In this document: piece by piece, positions 16,995 through 60,106 of the stretch
Position numbering within the stretch: the stretch's first letter is position 1
How the letters are laid out: every line of letters starts with the position of its first letter
Assembly (NCBI GenBank): GCA_013204605.1
Contig: JABMNI010000041.1
Span: 1-64,000, forward strand
Direction: 5' to 3'
DNA: 64,000 nt
Origin: Ignavibacteria bacterium
GTDB taxonomy: Bacteria > Bacteroidota > Ignavibacteria > Kapaibacteriales > Kapaibacteriaceae
Translations under genes and position numbers: made by a program
The notes under the pieces: model-generated
Told to the model about the DNA's origin: nothing
The model's database searches: none
Seen by the model: only the letters and a program-made list of their open reading frames with translations

Positions 16995-18194
16995 ATGTCA
17001 CAATCACCCCGCACAATATTACTGCTAGATGCAGATTCTGCACGCGCAATTGACACCGCGCAGATTTTGCTGCAGCATAGCGTTTCGGTTTTAATGGCCA
17101 ACGATGTTGCTACGGCGCAGCAATTGGTCAGGCACCACCGTCCAGGCGTGGTTGTGCTAGATGGCGGATTTCTATCCATCAAGGACCTTCGCGAAAAACT
17201 TTTCATCCACGGTTTGAATGTTGATACACCGTTTGTAATTCTTTCGCCGGACCGCGAACCACTTGCAGAAACCAACGTTCCGTACGCAATTATTTCGCGT
17301 CCGTTAACCGATGCCGGCATTACATCCTTACTTGCCATACAGGGTCTGCCCGTTCAAGGTGAAATTCCTCCAATTGTAACTCCATCGCAAACGCAGCCTT
17401 CGCTGTTGTAAGCGTTACCACACGAATATCGCACTCCTTTAACTGACATCATTGGCCAAGCTTCATTTTTGCACGGTCATGCGTCAGATTGTCCTGCCGA
17501 AGAAATCCGAGAAGTCAGTGCCGAAATCTTATCTGCCGCACGCCGGCTGCTCCGCACTACGGATAACTTTTTGATGTACGCGCAAATTGAGACGCTATCA
17601 GATAGCCCCCTACATATCGAGCGGATGCGTCAGTGCACATCGGTCGAGCCCGCGGGCATTATGTACGACGTGGTTGTACAAAAAGCGTTGGCCCACCAAC
17701 GTCAGCAAGACGTATCTATGGCGCTCGACATCGAAGGCGTGCCTATTGCTATTATGGAGCAGCACCTCGACAAAATCACTTCGGAGTTAGTCGAAAACGC
17801 GTTGTACTTCTCGCGTCCGGGCACTCCAGTTACCGTCACCGCCACACCAAGCAAATCGGTATTCGGACTAACTTCCGGTAACGATGGCGCGTATGTTTTT
17901 TATCCCGACTCCGTTGTTTCTAGCATAGAGAACGATGACCTTGGAAATGAAATCCAAGTTTCCATCTATCCCAACCCTTCCAATCACTTGTTCACCATCG
18001 ATCTAACCGGTACAGGATTCAACCCTGCAGAAACAATCATAACCTTATTCGATGCCCAAGGAAAAAAGATTTTTGAAAGGTTTCCAACGAACATTCATAA
18101 TCAATTTAGCGTTGAAGGACTTCACAAAGGTTTGTATTTGCTTCATATCGACAATCAAACAACCAAAGCCGTTAGAAAATTGCTCGTTGACTAA
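16995..18194 (+). pseudogene. Receiver-histidine kinase hybrid interrupted by an in-frame stop and fused to a T9SS C-terminal sorting domain
   Basis: Receiver ORF 16995-17411 and downstream ORF share one frame; across the TAA at 17409-17411 the reading is QPSLL*ALPHEYRTPLTDIIGQASFLHGH (HisKA H-box), then HATPase N-box ELVENALYFSRPG...NDG, then YPNPSNHLFTIDL...GLYLLHIDNQTTKAVRKLLVD (T9SS type A CTD). Confidence 0.75.
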
Positions 18195-20704
18195 TTGAGT
18201 ACGAGCATGGGCTCGCAATGTATGCCAGTGTTTGTTGAACAAACTACATAGTAGGTTCCGTTTTGCAAGTCCGACACATCCACTACTATACTACCTTCGT
18301 TTCCAACGCTAACTGAGTTTCCATCAATCGGTAACTCTCGCACGGTGCGTCCTAGGTAGTCGACCAATTTTAATCTCACCTGCGAAACTCCTTGACCAAG
18401 CGCACTAAAATTTACGAATCGAATGCTCGCGCTATTCGAAACCGGGTTAGGTGAAACACTTAATTTGAATTGAGTGCTTAGATCTTTCTCATTTTCATCA
18501 ATTGATGTTAAAAGCGATCGAACGTAAAGCCCTTTGTCAGTTGACACCCATAGCTGTTGCCGTGCATCAAGAGCTACACCAGAGATTCTCGTATTAAATG
18601 GAGTCACGGATTTCTCTTTCCATGACAGACCATTATCTACCGATACAAGGATAGCTTTGTCTGAGCTAGCCACGATAACAGCAGGAGCATGATCAATCGA
18701 CCATGAAACATTGCTAGCTAATTCAAGGTTGTAGGATTCAGTATGTACCGATTTCCAAGTGCCACCGTTATCGGTAGATCGAAGCAAGTACCAGTTATCC
18801 CACCTGAACTGTCCCTTATTCGACCAAACATCCCAGGTAGGTCGGGATGCCCAACATAGCAAAACATTGTCGTCAACTTGCACTACGTTCTCAATCCATG
18901 TAAGGTCAGCAGGTACGTTTGATTTTGCCCACGTAACGCCATCATTATCTGTTGTCCAAATGCCACCTGGAACTGAATCCTTCAACTCACCATCCTTTGA
19001 AATAACATACCCTCTATAACCAATCACTATTCGGCCACTGCTTAAGGGTATAATCGATGAAATAGCAGGTTTAGAAGTAGCTTCTTTATAAGCATCGGGA
19101 ACGTCTGACCAGGTAGTTCCTTCATCCTCAGACATAAACAGCTTTCTAAAGCCAGCGTACAATACATTTTTTGATGGCTGGCTGGCTGCTGAAATCGTGT
19201 CCTTACGAATTGCTCGACTATTGTGCCCCTCAATCGAAAACAAACCATTACTTCTAAAGCTAAACAGGCCAAAGTCAGAAACAGCCAGTGGCGAATTTCC
19301 GATTTCGAATCTACTTCTTGATTCAGGAGTCGAGGTTAGGAGTTTTGCATATTTCATCCAGTATGGGCTACTACCATCGTCACCAATAGTCAGAACATCC
19401 CCAAGGCTCGACAATGATAGTATACTACTGTCACGGCGTCGCACTGACAAAAACTCACGTGGTCTTTGGGGCTGTCCGTCCGCTGAGTAGCACTTCCCTG
19501 TGGGCTGCAAAACACCACGTTCAAGATCTACTTTATTCAGCATCGTTGAAACACCAGTGGATAGTAACTCTTCTCCATTCCACAATAAAGAATATAGCCT
19601 AGTTCCACTCACAACAACTTTTGATTGGCCCGTTTTAACGTTAAAAAGAACGGTGTTGTTAATACTCTGAAGCCCCTCTGTGTGACTATACTTCATAACA
19701 ACCGAGTCACCCTTCACAGCAAAACCACCGGGCCCCCTGTTCACTGCACTCACACGTGTTTCAAGAGGCAAACGGTAAGCTGTAAATGAACTTCCAGTTG
19801 CTACAACTACGTACCCTTTGTCAAGCGCCATAACAACTACGGAGTCATTTATTCTTACCAAATAACTGCTGACGTTTGAGACATCGATTTTGGGGAATGG
19901 AATGGCTGCTTCACTAGGCACATCTAACTCGTTCAAGTACACCCACGAATCACTTTCACTTGCCCTACGAGCAAGGCCAACTATCAAATTCGTGTTTGAG
20001 CCAGCCAACGAAACGGCACTGCCTTTTTCTAAAAATTCAGTATAACCTACAGAAGTAGGCAAGCTGTTTGTCGCTTCCCAACGCTTTGTTTCTAGATTCA
20101 ACCAGTGCCATGATGAATCCGCTTGAGCAAACGCGAAAAATCCTTTGGTTGGGTTATAACTCGTAGATAAGAAATGCGCCGTTTGTCCCCGATACGATTT
20201 CAAAGAATCTGGAATCGGCGCGCGAACCCAAGTAACACCACGATCTGTTGAATATGAATCCAAAATTGCGAACGCATTTGGTTCGAACCCTCTGAAATTG
20301 TTACCGTCAGCTATTCCTCCACCAACGTTTTGACTATCCAAATCTTCAAAAGTCAACACCCTAGGTGAATCGGAGGGCTTCGTGAATAGGTACGTTGTAC
20401 CTCTAGTCTCAGTAGCGAATGTTCCTCCTGAAATAATCCAAGTGCCATCTGCCAACCACGCATTTTGATTGCTTGCCACTATCCTTTTGAAAGACGAGTC
20501 CGGCAAGAACTGGTGCATTTCATCTGGTGTTGATCCCTTGAACAATCCAAATCCCGTTGTCACTGTACCCCACGTAGCATGCCACCTACAATATTGCCCA
20601 TCAAATACTGAAGAATATTCTGTCCACCAATAGTCTGGCAATGGTTGCTGTGCTTGCGTAACGATGTTTAACGCAAAGAACATTGTCAAAATCAAGATTT
20701 TCAT
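18191..20704 (-). CDS. Secreted BNR/photosystem-stability-factor-like beta-propeller protein with T9SS sorting domain
   Basis: Signal peptide MKILILTMFFALNIVTQAQ; repeated TDNGGTW/SVDNGLSW; C-terminus SPNPVSNSASIRF...NGTYYVVCSTN. Confidence 0.8.
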   Translation of the reverse strand: MKILILTMFFALNIVTQAQQPLPDYWWTEYSSVFDGQYCRWHATWGTVTTGFGLFKGSTPDEMHQFLPDSSFKRIVASNQNAWLADGTWIISGGTFATETRGTTYLFTKPSDSPRVLTFEDLDSQNVGGGIADGNNFRGFEPNAFAILDSYSTDRGVTWVRAPIPDSLKSYRGQTAHFLSTSYNPTKGFFAFAQADSSWHWLNLETKRWEATNSLPTSVGYTEFLEKGSAVSLAGSNTNLIVGLARRASESDSWVYLNELDVPSEAAIPFPKIDVSNVSSYLVRINDSVVVMALDKGYVVVATGSSFTAYRLPLETRVSAVNRGPGGFAVKGDSVVMKYSHTEGLQSINNTVLFNVKTGQSKVVVSGTRLYSLLWNGEELLSTGVSTMLNKVDLERGVLQPTGKCYSADGQPQRPREFLSVRRRDSSILSLSSLGDVLTIGDDGSSPYWMKYAKLLTSTPESRSRFEIGNSPLAVSDFGLFSFRSNGLFSIEGHNSRAIRKDTISAASQPSKNVLYAGFRKLFMSEDEGTTWSDVPDAYKEATSKPAISSIIPLSSGRIVIGYRGYVISKDGELKDSVPGGIWTTDNDGVTWAKSNVPADLTWIENVVQVDDNVLLCWASRPTWDVWSNKGQFRWDNWYLLRSTDNGGTWKSVHTESYNLELASNVSWSIDHAPAVIVASSDKAILVSVDNGLSWKEKSVTPFNTRISGVALDARQQLWVSTDKGLYVRSLLTSIDENEKDLSTQFKLSVSPNPVSNSASIRFVNFSALGQGVSQVRLKLVDYLGRTVRELPIDGNSVSVGNEGSIVVDVSDLQNGTYYVVCSTNTGIHCEPMLVLN

Positions 20705-20721: not shown

Positions 20722-21443
20722 TTATGGAGTGCAGCATGGTAAGCCTCCCAGTTTGCAACATTCGTCGAAATAAGTATTGCACTCGCCAGTACAAGCCGTG
20801 TTATCGCCCTCACAAACAGTACGTTGAAAACTACAGCAATCAACTGGAGATGTTCTGCAGTATCGTCTTTCAACAAAACAATGTCGGGCACAAGAGTTAT
20901 CACATGCATAGTAACAAAACGGAGCGTCGTAATGTTTATCCAAACATTTAGGTAGGGCTAGAATATGGCAGTAAACATTGTTGTTCGTAAGATTTGTACA
21001 TGTGTTACCAATGCCGCAATTCGGAAGGGTCACACCCAGAATGTTGTTGCAACAAAGATCAGTGCCTCTTATGATTGCTTGGTAAATAGCAGTCAAGCCT
21101 TGGTTTTTCAATTCCTGGGGAACACATATCCGTTTAATCCAAGTAATCGCATTTACACCATAATTACAATCCAGCCCTCCACCGGCAGTGCATGGGTTAT
21201 CGATTAGTGTCGAACTAGAAGCATATTGCGTACACATCCAAACAGAAGCAGTATAGTTAGTCCCCGCAAAACATATCGTAAAATCCGTTTGCACACCTTC
21301 ACAATCGCAATCCAATGGCATTTGTTTTGGACACTGATCTATAGGATACTCACATTGTGCTTTCGCATCACTGGCGGTTAACCCCAACATAACCAATGAA
21401 AGGACTAGCAGAGAGAGAGAGAGAAAAAAAAAACCTTTTTCAC
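20722..21443 (-). CDS. Cys-rich secreted protein #1; start out of frame with body (putative phase-variable)
   Basis: Mature part QCEYPIDQCPKQMPLDCDC...CCKLGGLPCCTP (about 29 Cys in ~224 aa); upstream in-frame FFFLSLSLLVLSLVMLGLTASDAKAQ is a signal-peptide core encoded partly by T10 and (CT)n; GTG AAA AAG (MKK) is off by one frame. Confidence 0.65.
21410..21433. repeat. (AG)7 plus A10 tract inside the signal-peptide coding region (reads T10(CT)n on coding strand)
   Basis: agagagagagagag + aaaaaaaaaa read directly. Confidence 0.9.
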
Positions 21444-21549
21444 ATAAACCTCACCGTTTAACTGAAAGAAAATTTAATTTCAGTAATAATACGTGATTTT
21501 GGGAAAATGTCAAGAAATTGTTTTCACACCACTTCGAGTTTTGCAAACT
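21436..21549 (-). promoter_or_regulatory. Duplicated promoter/leader block, copy 1
   Basis: tttttcacataaacctcaccgtttaactgaaagaaaatttaatttcagtaataatacgtgattttgggaaaa..., near-identical to 24711-24823. Confidence 0.85.
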
Positions 21550-21558
21550 CTGGTTCTC

Positions 21559-23973
21559 CTATCTATTCAAATACACCTTGCCAGTTACTTCACCACATGC
21601 TGTAGACAGCGTGTAACAGATCAATCCAGTAAGGTTATGAGGAAACAAAGCCTCTATTCTATCGCTTGAAGCAATTCCTTTACCTGTGTGCACTAATTCA
21701 CCGGCATACGTGTAAGCCTTAATGGAGAATGACCGATCGGTACAAGACGGGAAGAGATTTGCACCCTCCGTGTTTTGAGTTGGCTCATCCTTGATCGACG
21801 TAAAAATAGTTGGAGTGTACTTGTACAAACTTCTGTTAGTTCCGAAAAAGTATATGTCACTACCATCCACTGCAAAACCCTGGATACGGTACGGATTACT
21901 CCAATTCGACACCGCAGAGCCATTCCAATTTTTGCATCCATCAGTACTTGTAAATAGCAAGGAGTATTGGTAGAGCATTAAGGTTCGCTCCTCATTGCGA
22001 TCCACTTGTTGCACCAACAAACTTCCGGGATCCACGGGTTTGCCATTCAAGCTCCACTTCATGCGCTCAGCGCTCCACGCTGATGAATCTGCATTGAAAG
22101 AACAGAAGTAATTCACCACGGGATCAAACAAATTTGTAGATCCGCGAGTTCCCAACATGTAGGCAATCTGATTTTTCAAATGAAGATCGTACCCGGTATG
22201 TGGAAGAAAAGTCCGCACTACAACTGGGACTCTGGGCAAAATACTTACAGATCCATCATCAAACAACTCGAATACTTCCAGTGTATCCGGGATGCGATTA
22301 GTTTGGGTTCTTTGTTTATTTAACAAGCTCACTCGTAGCAGTACCTTACCGTTCTCCAACTTATCAATCCCAATTAGTCGGTATATAATTGAATCTTTAT
22401 AGTCAATCTTTGGCAACACCCATGTTGTCCCATTATCGGTAGAAATCAATGGAGCAAAAAAGCCCCATCTCGATGATGAAAAATCACTACTACTTGTTGC
22501 GGCAGCCAGCAATCCGGAATTGGTGCGAATTAATGTACCGACGTACTCTACCTTAAAGTTGTCGATACGGACCGTTTGTTCTTGCCAACTGCTCCCCGCA
22601 TCAGAACTTGTTGCATAATGATTGTCATTGGAACTTCCACTCAGGAAGAGAATATTGCCTTGTTTATTCAATACTGTGTATCCAGTTTCAAACGTAGCTA
22701 AAGTGTCCTCTTGGCAATTCACTTCAGCAACGTTACTTAGTCTCAACACAGAGCATGACACTGGAGTATCAAATTGACCAACCACCCTGGTATTTAATAC
22801 AAGAAAAGAACCTTCATCAGACTTTATTGCGCCACGCCATTCATTCTTGAAACTTCGAAATGTTCCCAGTGAATCTATCTCGAAATTTCCGATAGCCGAT
22901 TGCACATCTTGAAACCGCCACGATTCACCACCATTACGTGTATGATGAATTGCAATGTTTTGTCCATTGAATTGAGAGCCACAAAACACAACACCATCGG
23001 TGTCATTTAACATTACCACGCCAATTGCAGGAGTTGCGGGGTATAGGGACTGATAGTTTCCGTCTACTAATTTGTCTGTCAATAGTGCCTTGTTCCAAAA
23101 AGCCCCGCCATTGACGGATTTTGCGACAATCTGAAAGTAGGCATTATCACTCTCTTTCTTCCACAGATTTCCGCAAACATAAATTCTCCCAGAAGAATCC
23201 ATGGAGAGCTTTCTAAATGTATCGTCGCGCTCAACTCCATCCGCGTACGGGTAAGGAGTAGGTGGAATTAGATGATATACTTGATCCCATGTTTTTGCGC
23301 TATCTATTGACCTAAATACACGCCCTAGCGCACCACAAAGTAGTACCACGCTATCAGAAACAACTAATGCACTTGTAATGTGCATTGTGTCCAAGGGTGC
23401 AGGTCCATCAAACCACGTTTTCCCGGCGTCTCTCGAAAACATACTCTTCCCATGCTGACCAGGTACTGCAATTACGTCTCCCTTCATACTTAGCGAACCG
23501 CAAACAAAGTCAGACTTGTTTTGCACCACTCTCCATTCGTTAGTTGCACTACTCAACACAAGTATTTTGCCGTCGGTAGTGGCAACTACAATTCCATCTG
23601 GATGAGCCTGAACTCCTGAAATACTGGAGCTAACTGGTGCATTGATTGACTCCCAAATATTCGCGTTCTTAGGTCGCCTCCACACGTTTCCACCCTCACC
23701 AGCAGCCCACACGTCAACCTCGGTAACCAAGATTGACGTGATTTCGAATTGAACTGGCAAGCATTCCCATTCCCAAGTCATGCTACGATAGTCGTAGGTT
23801 CCTACGCGCCCAAACCCGCCACCAGCTATAACGTGAATTGAGTCGAGTTTTTCTGCGGCCATCAGATATCTGGCCCCATATTTACAAGGGAGTATCTCCC
23901 TCTGCACCGATTGTGCACTTAAAGTAGCGCACAGCAAAAAGTTAAATACTATTCCAACTAGAATTTTTTTCAT
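21559..23973 (-). CDS. Secreted BNR-repeat beta-propeller protein, T9SS CTD-like end
   Basis: MKKILVGIVFNFLLCATLSAQ signal; SRDAGKTWFDG, RNGGESWRF, STDNGTTWVLP; ends GEVTGKVYLNR. Confidence 0.78.
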   Translation of the reverse strand: MKKILVGIVFNFLLCATLSAQSVQREILPCKYGARYLMAAEKLDSIHVIAGGGFGRVGTYDYRSMTWEWECLPVQFEITSILVTEVDVWAAGEGGNVWRRPKNANIWESINAPVSSSISGVQAHPDGIVVATTDGKILVLSSATNEWRVVQNKSDFVCGSLSMKGDVIAVPGQHGKSMFSRDAGKTWFDGPAPLDTMHITSALVVSDSVVLLCGALGRVFRSIDSAKTWDQVYHLIPPTPYPYADGVERDDTFRKLSMDSSGRIYVCGNLWKKESDNAYFQIVAKSVNGGAFWNKALLTDKLVDGNYQSLYPATPAIGVVMLNDTDGVVFCGSQFNGQNIAIHHTRNGGESWRFQDVQSAIGNFEIDSLGTFRSFKNEWRGAIKSDEGSFLVLNTRVVGQFDTPVSCSVLRLSNVAEVNCQEDTLATFETGYTVLNKQGNILFLSGSSNDNHYATSSDAGSSWQEQTVRIDNFKVEYVGTLIRTNSGLLAAATSSSDFSSSRWGFFAPLISTDNGTTWVLPKIDYKDSIIYRLIGIDKLENGKVLLRVSLLNKQRTQTNRIPDTLEVFELFDDGSVSILPRVPVVVRTFLPHTGYDLHLKNQIAYMLGTRGSTNLFDPVVNYFCSFNADSSAWSAERMKWSLNGKPVDPGSLLVQQVDRNEERTLMLYQYSLLFTSTDGCKNWNGSAVSNWSNPYRIQGFAVDGSDIYFFGTNRSLYKYTPTIFTSIKDEPTQNTEGANLFPSCTDRSFSIKAYTYAGELVHTGKGIASSDRIEALFPHNLTGLICYTLSTACGEVTGKVYLNR

Positions 23974-23976
23974 AGC

Positions 23977-24718
23977 TCAATTCACACAGTTAACTACTTT
24001 GCAGTTGTTATAAATTGGGTCAGTACATGGTGGACCTTGCATCAGCCACGGTCCATCCCAGAATTGAACCTGACTTTGCGAACTCTTACAAAATGTGCGG
24101 ACTCTATAACAGCAACCGTTATTCAAGCAAGTGGTGAAACCTACAGACGCGTTTGCGTAAGGTGTAGGAGGCGGCAATGGGAACCAAGAGGCTTGAATCA
24201 ACATCAAATAAGTCGACCAAGAGATTGTAGGATCGTACGACTGCGTGGTGTGCCCGCCACCAGGGGTCTCCCACGTTATATAGGTTGCCATGCAATTTGC
24301 CACTTTGGAATAAATTAATGATACAGTTGAAGGACATGGACAACACTCTGGATCGGCTGTCCATTTAGCCATTTCTTTATTCGCAATAACCTTATAGATC
24401 CCGTCACGTAATCTCCCATCATTGATGGCAGCATTTATTGCATTTGCATCTGCACAGCCGGAAGGTGAAACGACTTCCATATTTACTGAATAGTCTAGCC
24501 ACTCTATTTGATTACACCTTGTCTGATAAGGCATGAAAACCTCAACAGAACACGGCGGAGAAGTTGAAATTTCCACAAATGCAGTCAAGGGATGATAGAC
24601 CCAAGGTTCAGCACATGGCGGCAACCCACCCCAATTGCAGCCTTCTTGGGCAGCAACTTGATTTGTCAGTGCACTAAGTAGAAATACCAGAGAGAGAGAG
24701 AGAGAAAATCTTTTTCAC
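23977..24718 (-). CDS. Cys-rich secreted protein #2; start out of frame with body (putative phase-variable)
   Basis: In-frame FSLSLSLVFLLSALTNQVAAQEGCNWGGLPPCAEPW...; GTG AAA AAG start is off-frame, and ATG in the body frame is followed at once by TGA. Confidence 0.65.
24689..24704. repeat. (AG)8 tract in signal-peptide coding region
   Basis: Read directly: agagagagagagagag. Confidence 0.9.
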
Positions 24719-24823
24719 ATAAACCTCACCGTTTAACTGAAAGAAAATTTAATTTCGGTAATAATACGTGATTTTTGGAAAAAGTCAAGAGATTTTTTAC
24801 ACCACTTCCAGCTTTGCAAACGC
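24711..24823 (-). promoter_or_regulatory. Duplicated promoter/leader block, copy 2, extending into the uvrD 3' end
   Basis: Near-identical to 21436-21549; includes ttacaccacttccagctttgcaaacg of the uvrD terminus. Confidence 0.85.
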
Positions 24824-44682: not shown

Positions 44683-45150
44683 GGGCGACGCATGCGTCGC
44701 CCTTACTCGGGGATAGGTTGCGTGTAACAGCATCGTCATTAACATTTTCACATTTTTACATTTTCTCATTGGCATTCTCATATTCGCACATTTACACATT
44801 GGGCTTCCCTCCCGGCTATTTTCTCCGGGCGACGCATGCGTCGCCCCAACTTGAAGATAGTTTGCGTGAATATGTTCGAAAAGAGAACTTCGTTTTTACG
44901 TCACATTATTTATTGCAGATTACGCATTGGCATTGGCATTCTCACATTTTCACATTTTCACATTTACACATTGGGCTTCGCTCCCGGTTATTTTCTCCGG
45001 GCGACGCATGCTCGCCCCAACTTGAAGATAGTTTGCGTGAATTGGTTCGACAAAGTAACTTCGTTAACACACTACATTATAAATTGTTGATTGGCATTGG
45101 CATTGGCATTGGCATTGGCATTCTCATATTTACACATTTACACATTTGAC
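44683..45150. repeat. Intergenic composite repeat, three units: 20-bp palindrome + spacer + CACATTTN/GGCATT arrays
   Basis: GGGCGACGCATGCGTCGCCC at 44683-44702 and 44827-44846, imperfect at ~44999-45017; ttggcattggcattctcacattttcacatt blocks between them. Confidence 0.9.
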
Positions 45151-47404: not shown

Positions 47405-49722
47405 CGCACCACCTGTAATACTGTGGATACGGTATGGCTACCAGTGCTTAGTACACATATATACAAACCTGCTGGTGTTTGGTCCAATTCGATTTGTAGC
47501 CGATGAACGCCCGAAGGATAGTTTACATTCTCTATTAGCACGCGATGAACACGCCCAAGTTGGTCGCAAAGCACAAAACGCACTGACTCTGCGTTCCGGA
47601 GTGAAAACCATAACACACCTTCATCTTGTACTGGATTGGGTGCTACGAATAACGTCGGTGCTGAGGACGCTAACTCGGGAGAAACAGCCCCAAGTTCTTG
47701 GCCTGCACTGCCATTTGAAACAACAATAGGTACTCTTGGAAAAAAGTCAGTACATGGGTCAGCAATTGAGGCTCTGAAGGAACAACCATCTCGTGCTCTA
47801 AACCCATTTTTCAGTCTCACCCTATCACCGGCAATGTAACTCAGCGTCGCCCCGGACTGTACAATGTTTTCATTGGCATTTCCGCAAACCTTTCCTGCCG
47901 TTATCCTGTGAATTGCCTCAAGCAACGTTTCAGTTGATTGGCTTGTGTATGTTGCACACCGTACAAAGTCGTAGCCAACATTATTCGCGTAGACACCTAC
48001 GGCTTTCCATGCCTCCTTAATCTGCGTAACATCTCCTGAGGTCAGCTCACTATTCAGAACTAAATCATTTGCTGCTTCCAAACTCCCGATACGTGCGTCC
48101 ACGAAGTTTGACCATGGACCTAGGTAGTCTGAAAGATTCCGAAATGCAACCTTTGCTGCTTTTTCCTTTCCAATCCCGGTAACTGAATACGTGGCGGTGC
48201 TGCAACAATGGTTATTTGTTCCCGTGTGCGTACCCGACTTAGCAAGCAAGGTGAACCATCTATTTTGAACCCCGGCACGGATATGATATCCAGGGTCTTC
48301 TTCTTGAATTGTGCTCCAGTATGTTCCACAGTATGTATCGGGGTGTTGCTTCGCATTCGGGTTTACCATGTTTCGCTGGTTGGCCGTCGTCAGACATTCT
48401 TCTCCCATAATATAGTCTTCACAGTCGTACTGGTTGCTTTGATCATACAGACCCTTTGCATAGCACTCAACCATACTGCCAAAAATATCTCCAAAGGACT
48501 CGAATAGCGCGCCAAATTCACCAACAGGACCAGAAGTTGGAATATCGGCGACTTCGTAGCTGATAGCATGCGTCCATTCATGTCCAATCACGTCTAGCGC
48601 TGTGCCCCAGTCAATAAAAACGTCTGGGTACTCTTCAGGGTCAGGGACAACTATGCATTGATAGTTATTATACCAGTTAAATTGTGACCGTCCTCCTAAT
48701 AACTGCAACATGGGTGACCCATTATTATCATATCCATCATATTTTTGTTCTTTATGGAAATATTCGTAGGTCATCATGGCGGACCAATGCGCCTGTACAT
48801 ATGGATTTAGGGCATTGTCATCCGTCCATTCGAGATCAGCATGAGATATTTCGGTTTGCGTTGGATTTGTGAGGATATGAGCATCAATACTACGTGTTTG
48901 AATATATGTAGCGTTGCAATAATCTTCGAGTATATAATCACTACCAACTAGCTTCACATTTATGATTTGCTCACCGTTAAACAAGGTGTTGGCATTTGCT
49001 TTTGGATTGGTACATCCAGTACTGTTGCGAACGGCTTTCACAATTGAACCATTAATTGCATCCACAAACATATTGTATTGGCCAATTGGTCGAACGGTTG
49101 CAATTGGTATTAGATAGGCTAAAACAAGATTAGATCCCACAACATCTTGATTGTCATTAACCCGTACGAAGGCTAGTTCCGGTTCTGGATATTGCGTGAC
49201 TGTCGTGTCATTCAGTATACGTTTAACAAAGAGTTCTTCTGCCCGGTCAAGAAAGGCAGGCGTGCCGTGTGGCACAGCACGAATGGCTCGTTCAAGAGCT
49301 TGTTGCCTTGTTAGATTTGGCCAACCGGAGAGGCCTAAGCTGATAACGATCCTGCCATTAGCTTTTACGGCTCTGCCGTTCTTCTCATGGACGATAAACA
49401 TGGCATCTTGAATTGGGACGCCATCGTGATATTGCTTGTATCGGTAATGAGTATACCCATATCTGTCTTGAGTAACCCGTAACAGTCGCATCTCATCAGT
49501 TGAGGTTAGCCCAAATAGTGGTCCGTAGACCTCAAACACACGCTTCCCTGAAATGTTCACGTTGTCTTTGAAACGTACCCATCCGCTAGGGTGTACGATA
49601 TTGCATATCTCTGTTACATTCGGGTCAAGCTGAGCATGAAGCGACCTTGGTACAGAAAAAACAACCAGTGGAACTATTAAGAGAATACACCGGCTGAACG
49701 AAACCGAAATTGCTGTACTCAT
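47401..49722 (-). CDS. Thermolysin-like (M4) metalloprotease with T9SS sorting domain
   Basis: DVIGHEWTHAISYE zincin motif; GEFGALFESFGDIFG; APNPVQDEGVLWFSL...TPAGLYICVLSTG. Confidence 0.92.
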   Translation of the reverse strand: MSTAISVSFSRCILLIVPLVVFSVPRSLHAQLDPNVTEICNIVHPSGWVRFKDNVNISGKRVFEVYGPLFGLTSTDEMRLLRVTQDRYGYTHYRYKQYHDGVPIQDAMFIVHEKNGRAVKANGRIVISLGLSGWPNLTRQQALERAIRAVPHGTPAFLDRAEELFVKRILNDTTVTQYPEPELAFVRVNDNQDVVGSNLVLAYLIPIATVRPIGQYNMFVDAINGSIVKAVRNSTGCTNPKANANTLFNGEQIINVKLVGSDYILEDYCNATYIQTRSIDAHILTNPTQTEISHADLEWTDDNALNPYVQAHWSAMMTYEYFHKEQKYDGYDNNGSPMLQLLGGRSQFNWYNNYQCIVVPDPEEYPDVFIDWGTALDVIGHEWTHAISYEVADIPTSGPVGEFGALFESFGDIFGSMVECYAKGLYDQSNQYDCEDYIMGEECLTTANQRNMVNPNAKQHPDTYCGTYWSTIQEEDPGYHIRAGVQNRWFTLLAKSGTHTGTNNHCCSTATYSVTGIGKEKAAKVAFRNLSDYLGPWSNFVDARIGSLEAANDLVLNSELTSGDVTQIKEAWKAVGVYANNVGYDFVRCATYTSQSTETLLEAIHRITAGKVCGNANENIVQSGATLSYIAGDRVRLKNGFRARDGCSFRASIADPCTDFFPRVPIVVSNGSAGQELGAVSPELASSAPTLFVAPNPVQDEGVLWFSLRNAESVRFVLCDQLGRVHRVLIENVNYPSGVHRLQIELDQTPAGLYICVLSTGSHTVSTVLQVVR

Positions 49723-51097
49723 CGCATGGATTCCCGAATTTGGTCAATCTCACGTTTGAGGGAGTTATTCTGCTCAGATAATCTGATAACGTAGAGCGTC
49801 AGTTGTTCAATTTTTTCTAAAAAAGTTGCTTGTAGCTTGCCAAGCAGAACCCCATGTTCTGCTACTTCTGACTGATTTGGAATTCCAGGAAGGTGTTTGT
49901 TCTTATATATATACTCTTTCAATTCATCTATTGCCATAAGGTTATAGTCTTCGCTAAAAACGTAATCGGGCCACCAACCTCCAGTTCGAACAGCAATTTC
50001 TTTTGTCAAGATCACACCGTCTACATGCAACTTGTGAGAAAAATTTGCCGTTAGTTGATCGTCGTTATAATTTTCACCTATAATAACATCACCCTTTACT
50101 TGCAGTCCGCCCCCTGCTAAATTCGAATGTGCATCACCATACCCTACTACCAATGTCCCTGCATTCGTTAGCTTAATCAACTGGGAGTTATCCGAGTTAG
50201 TGATCCTCAAGGCATTTGTCGCACCTGTATAATCTTGCGTCTTGATAAAGAGTCTTGTCCCAGTTTCCGGCGTACCACTACCGAATGCGTAGATTCCGTT
50301 GCCGTTGGAATCGTAGTATAAACTCAATCCATTAAACGTTCCAGATGGCTCTTGAAAATCCACTGCTCCGTCAGCGCTTCCAGTACCACCTAATCCCAAT
50401 CGCACCTTACCGTTGCTGGCAAAATCGAGTACTGAACTGTATCCATTGTTAATTCGCTTCTGATTGTTCGAACCGTCAACGTAGACATTGAACCCGAAAA
50501 AGTCGTTGAACGAACCAACATGAAACGTCAGCCGTGGACCTATTTGCAACAACTCCTTTGGATCTACACTCGCAATTCCAACGTGTCCAATGTCGATGAT
50601 CCGCATTCTTTCCGCATCTGCGCCGCTATTCGGCGATGTCGTCGCAAACCGTATCATCGAACCAGGATCGCGAGTGGTAAGAATCAGGTTGGCGGTTGTA
50701 GAATCAGAGACACCCACGGCAATTGAAAAATCATTGAGAGTTTCGAGTGTAGTATTTTGAAACCCACCACGATACAAACTTAAAGTTGTATGAAAATCAC
50801 CAGCACATATCGGACTCAGTGCTGGACCATTCGAGCTGAACCTTAGAGATGGCTGACCACTCTCCAATAGATGCAGAGTAAATGGCTGCGTATAGTTATT
50901 TGCGCATGCACAGCCATTCGCATTGTCTGTAATCCTTACCCGCTGGCCAATTCTATCCCCATTTATTACACCCGGATTACAGTTTTGTGACCTAGCTACC
51001 CCATGAATACAAAACAGGCTTATTATAAGAACCGCAACTATGTTATCACGTCTGGATAGGTAACTACGTCGAGAGAGAGAGAGAGAGATTTAATCAT
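49719..51097 (-). CDS. Secreted tail-fibre/cell-wall-anchor-like protein; start out of frame with body (putative phase-variable)
   Basis: Body frame extends upstream to ...RRDNIVAVLIISLFCIHGVARSQNCNPGVINGDRIGQ...; ATG ATT AAA TCT at 51097 is off-frame because of (GA)9 length; C-term KNKHLPGIPNQSEVAEHGVLLGKLQATFLEKIEQLTLY. Confidence 0.65.
51071..51088. repeat. (GA)9 tract near the translation start
   Basis: Read directly. Confidence 0.92.
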
Positions 51098-51583
51098 AAA
51101 CACCTCAATGTTAAAAACTTAAACGCAGTATTTATACTGAATTGACAACTATACTAAATTTTTTTTTTAAAGCAAGTGAGTTTCCAAACAAACTCGAAAT
51201 ATCCTTAATCTATTGACTACTTATAGGAGTAGTGCATCGACAACCTGAAGGTTTTGCCAGATAATTCTAACTGGATACAAACTCGAAATCATATGTTCGC
51301 TGTTTATATGAACAGTAGCAATTTTGGTCGCCACCATCCATCGTAACGCATAATAGATCAACTAGCTAGGTCAATCCAATTTTCTGCAAATCGCCGAGCT
51401 AAAATGTGCAGTTAGCTGTCCCGAACGCAGCTAGGGACGAACTGGACCATTAGCAATTAGCATTCTCAGATTTCCACATTTTCACACTAGGTTTCTTCCC
51501 GGTACATCCTTCCCGGTAATTTTTCTCCCGCCTATTTCTTGGGCGTATTTTGTAGTTCGTAAATTGAGCGCGACTCGTAATTG

Positions 51584-51660
51584 TTTTTTCGTCCCTCGTA
51601 GCGCTCCGGACTCGCAATTCGTAACTCGCAATTCGTAATTCCTAATTCGTAATTCGAAAT
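51584..51660. repeat. Intergenic heptamer array (TAATTCG)n with TCGTCCCTCG.. block
   Basis: cgtccctcgtagcgctccggactcgcaattcgtaactcgcaattcgtaattcctaattcgtaattcg. Confidence 0.8.
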
Positions 51661-51665
51661 TGTTT

Positions 51666-57631: not shown

Positions 57632-58189
57632 TTGCACGTGGCAAATCCATTCAGTTCTGCATCGGTTAAAACATTTTCGGTCCTTTTTGCACTTGGAGGC
57701 ACCATTTGGTTGGGTGCAACCATTGCAAGAACCGCAATTGGTTTTGATGTTTTTGAAGGGGGCTCTCTGATTTTCAAGGAGTGGCAACCTGTAGAAGTAA
57801 GACTGCATGTTATCTGGTTGTTCTCCATGTTGGGCGCACTTACTGGATGGTCGTTCCTATTGGCCACAATTGGCGCTGTTGGCAACCTGTTTTTATTGCG
57901 TCAGCATACCAAACAACACGGTTGGATAATGATGGCCGCCATCATGTTTTTGCTCATGTTACCCGTCCAAATGTACCTATCGTGGCAAGATTTCCATCTG
58001 TGGCGATTGTTCGATCCGTATACCGGAATGCCCCTTGCCAAGACCGATGAAATATTCAGTGTCTTTTTAATGCGCTACACAAACGTGCTTATTAACGTCG
58101 CAACCGGCATGCTTGTCCTGATGGGCGTAACGCTGGTAATGGTGTTAGCGGCACGACCGCTAAGCAAATGTGAGAATGTGGAAATTTGA
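57632..58189 (+). CDS. Hypothetical integral membrane protein
   Basis: Several hydrophobic segments. Confidence 0.6.
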   Translation: MHVANPFSSASVKTFSVLFALGGTIWLGATIARTAIGFDVFEGGSLIFKEWQPVEVRLHVIWLFSMLGALTGWSFLLATIGAVGNLFLLRQHTKQHGWIMMAAIMFLLMLPVQMYLSWQDFHLWRLFDPYTGMPLAKTDEIFSVFLMRYTNVLINVATGMLVLMGVTLVMVLAARPLSKCENVEI

Positions 58190-58440
58190 GAATGACAATG
58201 TGGAAATGCAAATGTGAGAATGTGGAAATTTGAGAATGACAATGTGGAAATGCAAATGTGTAAATGCAAATGTGTAATTGAGTAGATATGTAAATGAGTA
58301 GTTATGTAAATGAGTAGATATGAGAATGCCAACAAAACGTTTCAAAGCTCCTATCCGCAAGTAGGGGCGACGCATGCGTCGCCCGAGTTGTCCCCAAGAA
58401 AACCCAATGTGTAAATGTGGAAATGTGGAAATGTGAGAAA
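58165..58440. repeat. Intergenic octamer/hexamer array with 20-bp palindrome at 58365-58384
   Basis: aatgtgagaatgtggaaatttgagaatgacaatgtgg... and GGGCGACGCATGCGTCGCCC. Confidence 0.9.
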
Positions 58441-58751
58441 TGAAACCCGATAAAATTCTTGAAGAGTTATACGCGTTGGCAAAGAGCCTTGGATATAGTG
58501 TTCATCGCGAGCCGGGAGCCTTTAAGGGTGGGGCATGCATTGTGCGCGAACAGAAACACATCATCATAAATAAGTCGATGCCGCTCGAAGCATCGTCAGT
58601 TATACTTGCACGCGCGCTGTGCCAACTCGACGTTGAAGGAATGTTCATCAAGCCCGCCGTGCGCGAGATAATTGATCGCGAAAGAAAATGGGCATTGTTG
58701 AACCCAGACGTTATGTTCGAACTCGATGGCGCCAAAGAGGTTCAAGAATGA
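58440..58751 (+). CDS. Hypothetical protein, ATGA-overlapped with era
   Basis: MKPDKILEELYALAKSLGYSVHREPGAFKGGACIVREQKHIIINKSM. Confidence 0.75.
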   Translation: MKPDKILEELYALAKSLGYSVHREPGAFKGGACIVREQKHIIINKSMPLEASSVILARALCQLDVEGMFIKPAVREIIDRERKWALLNPDVMFELDGAKEVQE

Positions 58752-59821: not shown

Positions 59822-59950
59822 GAGAATGTGCAAATGTGTAAATGTGAGAATGCCAATTGGATTATGTGAAAATCTGGAAATGCGATGCGTTCCTATCTTC
59901 GAGTAGGATGCGTTCCTATCTTCGAGTAGGAGCGACGCATGCGTCGCCCG
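59822..59950. repeat. Intergenic octamer array + duplicated cctatcttcgagtagga + palindrome
   Basis: tcctatcttcgagtaggatgcgttcctatcttcgagtaggagcgacgcatgcgtcgccc. Confidence 0.88.
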
Positions 59951-60106
59951 CGTATTGAACGCCCCATGCGTCGCCCTTCCTCCCCGCATCCTCGCGTATC
60001 GAACCTGTCGCCGGTGAGACCAGATACCGGCTGTTTCGCCCCCAATTCGTAATTCGTAATTCCTAATTGATCATTGGCTGGCTTAGAAACCTTATTTTCG
60101 TAGTCT

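Follow-up and report, generated by a model that had tools for sequence, protein, structure and literature searches.

A repeat at the head of a probable three-gene operon

On the minus strand of the window (the whole stretch of DNA that was analysed, 64,000 nucleotides), a gene for a secreted tail-fibre-like protein, ORF1, is followed by genes for an M4 (thermolysin-like) protease and a propeller protein (Table 1). ORF1 has a weak match to a PHROG tail fibre (E 1e-4) and homologues in its own genome and in related genomes; its AlphaFold model has a mean pLDDT of 34 and is usable only in the C-terminal coiled coil. The protease has both its catalytic and its alpha-helical domain above the cut-off, with the HExxH motif present as HEWTH. 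The T9SS sorting domain of the propeller protein has a below-cut-off counterpart in the protease (19.8 bits) and is absent from ORF1, where it was also searched for. The genome encodes the T9SS component SprA, with SprA_N above the cut-off on contig C42; together with the sorting domains, this suggests a member of the Bacteroidota group.

As noted in the initial annotation, the genes overlap by 4 nt at both junctions (ORF1/M4, 49722/49719; M4/propeller, 47404/47401), and both overlaps are of the ATGA type; there is no clear Shine-Dalgarno sequence 5′ of the protease ATG. The same order, ORF1, M4 protease and third gene, is found in G004, a single-contig genome from another genus of the same family, with an ORF1 homologue that is 44% identical. 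This conserved order supports an operon. Because the G004 genes carry no repeat, the operon exists independently of the repeat, and switching is not general to it.

Table 1. Repeat tracts and neighbouring genes in the 64-kb window
Feature	Position	Strand	Basis or state
ORF1 ATG start	51095..51097	-	GAGG (Shine-Dalgarno-like) precedes; with 8 units this ATG opens the long frame
Tract 3, (TC)9	51071..51088	-	Signal-peptide codons of ORF1; OFF as assembled
ORF1 mature part, 423 aa, secreted tail-fibre-like, C-terminal coiled coil	49719..50990	-	PHROG, homologues, codon constraint
M4 (thermolysin-like) protease, 773 aa	47401..49722	-	PF01447 48.1 bits, PF02868 96.3 bits
Propeller protein with T9SS sorting domain, 417 aa	46151..47404	-	PF14870 60.2 bits, PF18962 30.8 bits
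Tract-2 leader, TTGACT-16-TATTAT	24690..24800	-	Copy at tract 1, 21415-21523
Tract 2, (CT)8 after TTTT	24689..24705	-	In the signal peptide of a Cys-rich protein; OFF as assembled, open with 6 or 9 units
Secreted Cys-rich protein of the tract-2 unit, starting at GTG 24718	23977..24718	-	
Propeller-like protein, 804 aa, second gene of tract-2 unit	21559..23973	-	Weak BNR-type matches; resembles G004 propellers
Tract 1, T10 then (CT)7	21410..21433	-	Signal peptide of Cys-rich protein; OFF
Secreted Cys-rich protein of the tract-1 unit, 29 Cys, starting at GTG 21443	20722..21443	-	
Propeller with T9SS sorting domain, 837 aa, second gene of tract-1 unit	18191..20704	-	PF18962 27.0 bits, at cut-off

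Frame arithmetic of tract 3

Tract 3, which TRF delimits as in Table 1 with 100% matches, begins 9 nt past the ORF1 ATG, the minus strand reading ATG ATT AAA (TC)9 GAC GTA. Its unit size is not divisible by three, and it lies inside the 5′ coding part of the gene. As assembled, with nine units, the ATG opens a peptide of 19 aa (MIKSLSLSLDVVTYPDVIT, then a stop); the coordinates and peptides that had led to the start being described as out of frame were re-derived and are correct. Re-translation at 5-13 units yields 456, 458 and 460 aa at 5, 8 and 11 units, respectively, and only 9-21 aa at every other count. The loss of one unit does open the ORF1 frame, as had been proposed; minus one unit or plus two gives 458-460 aa including the signal peptide. 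The ON frame encodes a typical signal peptide; the OFF frame does not.

The open frame had been described as an ORF of 382 aa. The frame holds; the size is that of a mechanical ORF from TTG50867 and falls short of the signal peptide and a further 41 mature codons. Over these 41 codons, 5′ of the TTG, ORF1 has 68% protein identity to a paralogue on contig C83, with nucleotide mismatches of 9/9/29 by codon position. Such codon-level conservation between the signal peptide and TTG50867 means that the real ORF1 protein starts further upstream. It argues against TTG50867 as a constitutive start, and the 41 constrained codons contradict in-frame translation from that TTG, which the initial annotation had named as the outcome that would speak against a switch.

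Two further units with tracts in signal peptides

Tracts 1 and 2 each lie in a gene for a Cys-rich protein, and behind each of these genes a propeller-type gene (800-840 aa) starts within 17 nt. A search of the tract-2 propeller detected no T9SS sorting domain. Tract 1 would be ON with a CT count of 6 or 9, or with T11 in place of T10. The leaders of tracts 1 and 2 are 92% identical over 109 nt, have a TTGACA/T-16-TATTAT promoter-like match in common and have no other copy in the genome; the Cys-rich proteins behind them have no detectable relationship to each other. With leaders so alike and proteins unrelated, leader and repeat look as if they had been duplicated as a cassette. The tract-2 protein family also takes in three (CT)n genes of G004 and two genes with octamer repeats on contig C39, and the tract-1 protein is related to a gene with a G10 tract on contig C47.

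In relatives, the tract-1-type gene has an upstream run of T11 (L133:63-73) or T10 (L134:1391-1400; genomes G017 and G009), a possible further length-variable tract.

A candidate slipped-strand switch

We consider it very probable, from frame arithmetic and comparison with paralogues and relatives, that (TC)9 is a slipped-strand contingency tract placed in the signal-peptide codons of ORF1, the gene that leads a three-gene operon. TC units gained or lost in replication would shift the reading frame of ORF1: with 5, 8 or 11 units a secreted tail-fibre-like protein of 456-460 aa would be made, and with other counts translation would stop after 9-21 codons. The repeat would encode (Ser-Leu)n in a tolerant, cleaved N-terminus, so that unit changes would leave the mature protein unaltered. 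The slippage itself, in living cells and within one population, is what we infer; the frame switch of ORF1 is strongly supported by the exclusive placement of the tracts, by convergent repeats in paralogues and by unit-sized ON/OFF differences between near-identical copies.

First, pattern searches of the genome (2,693,137 bases in 86 contigs, one assembly) find runs of (CT)≥6 just three times, at 21410, 24689 and 51071. Each of these lies in the window, on its minus strand, and all three sit 9-20 nt after a start codon, in signal-peptide codons. Dinucleotide shuffling predicts 0.01 CT runs of 12 nt per 64 kb, against eight overlapping matches in three tracts seen; the numbers expected in 2.69 Mb are ~1e-3 for runs of at least 15 nt and ~1e-5 for 18 nt. 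The placement of all three tracts at gene starts has p ~4e-5 if ~3% of strand positions fall in the first 75 nt of a gene, a rough figure based on one gene every 1.1 kb, and this p is only a guide because tracts 1 and 2 have their leader in common and are not independent. The shuffles and the genome-wide run counts led us to reject a chance origin of the tracts. All three are OFF as assembled (probability ~0.3 under random frames), so expression of the genes is unproven.

Second, paralogues in the same genome carry other repeats at equivalent positions. The C83 paralogue of ORF1, 64% identical to it, begins in (CCACT)≥9.4, a repeat that reaches the contig end, is unique in the genome and occupies the place equivalent to tract 3. 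Contig C39 encodes two tract-2 paralogues with (TCTGTGCC)3.6 and (TCTGCGCC)4.8 at the equivalent signal-peptide position, and the doubled octamer has no other occurrence in the genome; of this pair, C39b is OFF and would open to 252 aa with one octamer fewer. On C47, a homologue of the tract-1 protein lies behind G10. With CT, CCACT, octamers and G10 among the paralogues, each of three protein families has at least two repeat kinds among its members.

Third, tracts of (CT)11-18 are found at homologous genes of relatives, and their lengths differ between ON and OFF states at homologous loci in G004 (copies a and b) and between G035 and G026. In G004, three (CT)n genes of the tract-2 family have 13, 11 and 18 units, that is OFF, ON and OFF, and a propeller-like gene of about 800 aa comes after each. 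Copies a and b encode proteins about 90% identical, with tracts of 26 nt (OFF) and 22 nt (ON), and their start regions are nearly identical except for four nucleotides of the tract. The G035 and G026 orthologues share 91% identity over 523 nt and have tracts of 27 nt (ON) and 29 nt (OFF), respectively.

Across the class, ATGA with (CT)8 following within 26 nt is found in 13 of 394 genomes, compared with 4 for a reversed control. Of the 16 loci that were translated, 12 are open to 269-512 aa in one phase, and most of these start with a hydrophobic signal or as a lipoprotein; ON as assembled are three of the 12, close to the one third given by random frames. A CT tract is not diagnostic by itself, since many (CT)n tracts in order-level genomes (for example, G034 and G076) are not followed by a long ORF. 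The (TC)7 gene of G003 was dropped as evidence, its frame being broken again downstream.

The distant genome G247 has three similar secreted-protein genes with (CT)8, (CT)9 and (CT)10 in the signal peptide, all OFF (L152, L159, L163); judged by its tracts and frames, it is a second multi-locus case in the class.

Other repeats in the genome

The neighbour of C39b, C39a, is in frame (L113, about 1415-1440) and has ATA where C39b has ATG; either its start codon is mutated or a GTG within the repeat serves as start. Tracts of G10-G12 are present on C47 (L182, C47:17600-20700), C72 (L183, C72:21800-24800), C75 (L184, C75:56000-59000) and C64 (L185, C64:1-3000). Those on C72, C75 and C64 are 11-12 nt long and may be promoter-type switches; the C72 and C75 tracts have the context TTTGGAAA..G11TAA in common, which also occurs in G009 5′ of an ORF1 homologue (L080:1344-1354). 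Poly-G at contig ends (G58 at the end of C18, L186; G12 and G18 at the starts of C56, L187, and C79, L188) probably represents sequencing or assembly artefacts.

Short tandem or scattered repeats also lie in the window at 44742-44972, 45090-45147, 51461-51661, 58164-58442 and 59825-60068. These intergenic repeats are of the ACGAATT, CATTTTCA and AATGTGGA types and include the stretch just upstream of tract 3.

Reach of the proposed switch and alternative explanations

In the OFF state, lost translational coupling or polarity would also lower the protease and the propeller protein. Such co-switching is plausible from the ATGA overlaps and the gene order kept in G004, and we give it about even chances. 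Only just short of even, in our estimate, is the alternative that ORF1 alone is switched and that the protease and propeller genes use their own expression signals at any tract length. A promoter-like match directly behind tract 3 (51049-51022, minus strand) would allow the downstream genes to be expressed independently of the tract, and the occurrence of the same three genes without a repeat in G004 agrees with this. However, the overlaps at both junctions and the lack of a clear Shine-Dalgarno sequence at the M4 ATG favour coupling, and a promoter and terminator scan over the operon returned no more matches in total than shuffled sequence, which holds for the promoter-like matches of the region as well.

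It is very unlikely that the out-of-frame tracts are simply read through by programmed transcriptional or ribosomal slippage, with some full-length protein in every cell and no genetic switch involved. The out-of-frame state of all three tracts in the assembly would fit such read-through, as would the T10 of tract 1, a slippery sequence, but relatives have in-frame alleles of these genes (G004b, G035 and G139). Moreover, the repeats differ (CT, CCACT and octamers), and octa- and pentanucleotides are not usual slippery sites for the ribosome or RNA polymerase; the offset needed also varies, from plus one unit at tract 2 to minus one at tracts 1 and 3. Least probable of all is that ORF1 is a decaying pseudogene or its frame break an assembly error: there is only a single assembly, in 86 contigs, with the C83 repeat at the end of its contig, but the 423-aa mature frame is intact, its differences from the paralogue in the stretch compared fall mostly on third codon positions, ordinary reads easily span an 18-nt run and the architecture is found again in single-contig G004.

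Relation to known phase-variable systems

Most known cases of phase variation driven by repeats come from host-adapted pathogens (Neisseria, Haemophilus, Helicobacter and Campylobacter), and Bacteroidota are known for DNA inversions. The Neisseria opa genes have (CTCTT)n in the signal peptide and resemble the genes described here in placing a frame-shifting repeat in the cleaved signal-peptide codons of a paralogue family. They use one repeat unit throughout, whereas paralogues here have CT, CCACT, octanucleotides or G-tracts.

A close parallel is oipA (hopH) of H. pylori, in which CT repeats in the signal peptide turn the gene ON and OFF by slipped-strand mispairing (PMC10564699). Like oipA and the other (CT)n-switched Hop adhesins, the genes here have a CT repeat in signal-peptide codons that sets the frame ON or OFF. 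Unlike them, they do not encode Hop outer-membrane proteins: a Pfam search returned no family for ORF1 or either Cys-rich protein, and no Hop outer-membrane domain. In addition, ORF1 is the lead gene of an operon that also encodes a protease and a T9SS propeller, and the repeat unit varies among paralogues. A 2025 review assigns DNA inversion to Bacteroides and repeat-driven switching to other, mostly pathogenic, groups (PMC11868660). Bacteroides offers phase variation of surface functions in a T9SS-bearing (Bacteroidota-type) group, by inversion (PMC11868660) where repeat length would act here. A full-text literature search, of incomplete coverage, found no report of repeat-driven switching of T9SS cargo. 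The mechanism is known, of the H. pylori OipA type; the novelty lies in the lineage, in the mixture of repeat units reached by convergence and in the repeated placement before propeller genes.

A slipped-strand switch at ORF1, together with tracts 1 and 2 and their relatives, would add candidate repeat switches to a T9SS-bearing class, acting on secreted Cys-rich or tail-fibre-like proteins and on their propeller or protease partners, and these candidates are testable in existing metagenome reads. That unit size varies among paralogues points to switchability itself being under selection. On the sequence evidence, bacteria of this group probably turn sets of secreted proteins ON and OFF at random, as Helicobacter and Neisseria do. 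More tentatively, and at rather less than even chances, the lineage may possess a phasome for T9SS-linked secreted modules, in which at least three unrelated protein families carry varied frame-shifting or promoter repeats (CT, CCACT, octanucleotide and poly-G) at the same position, and operons of a first protein plus a propeller or protease would be shuffled population-wide.
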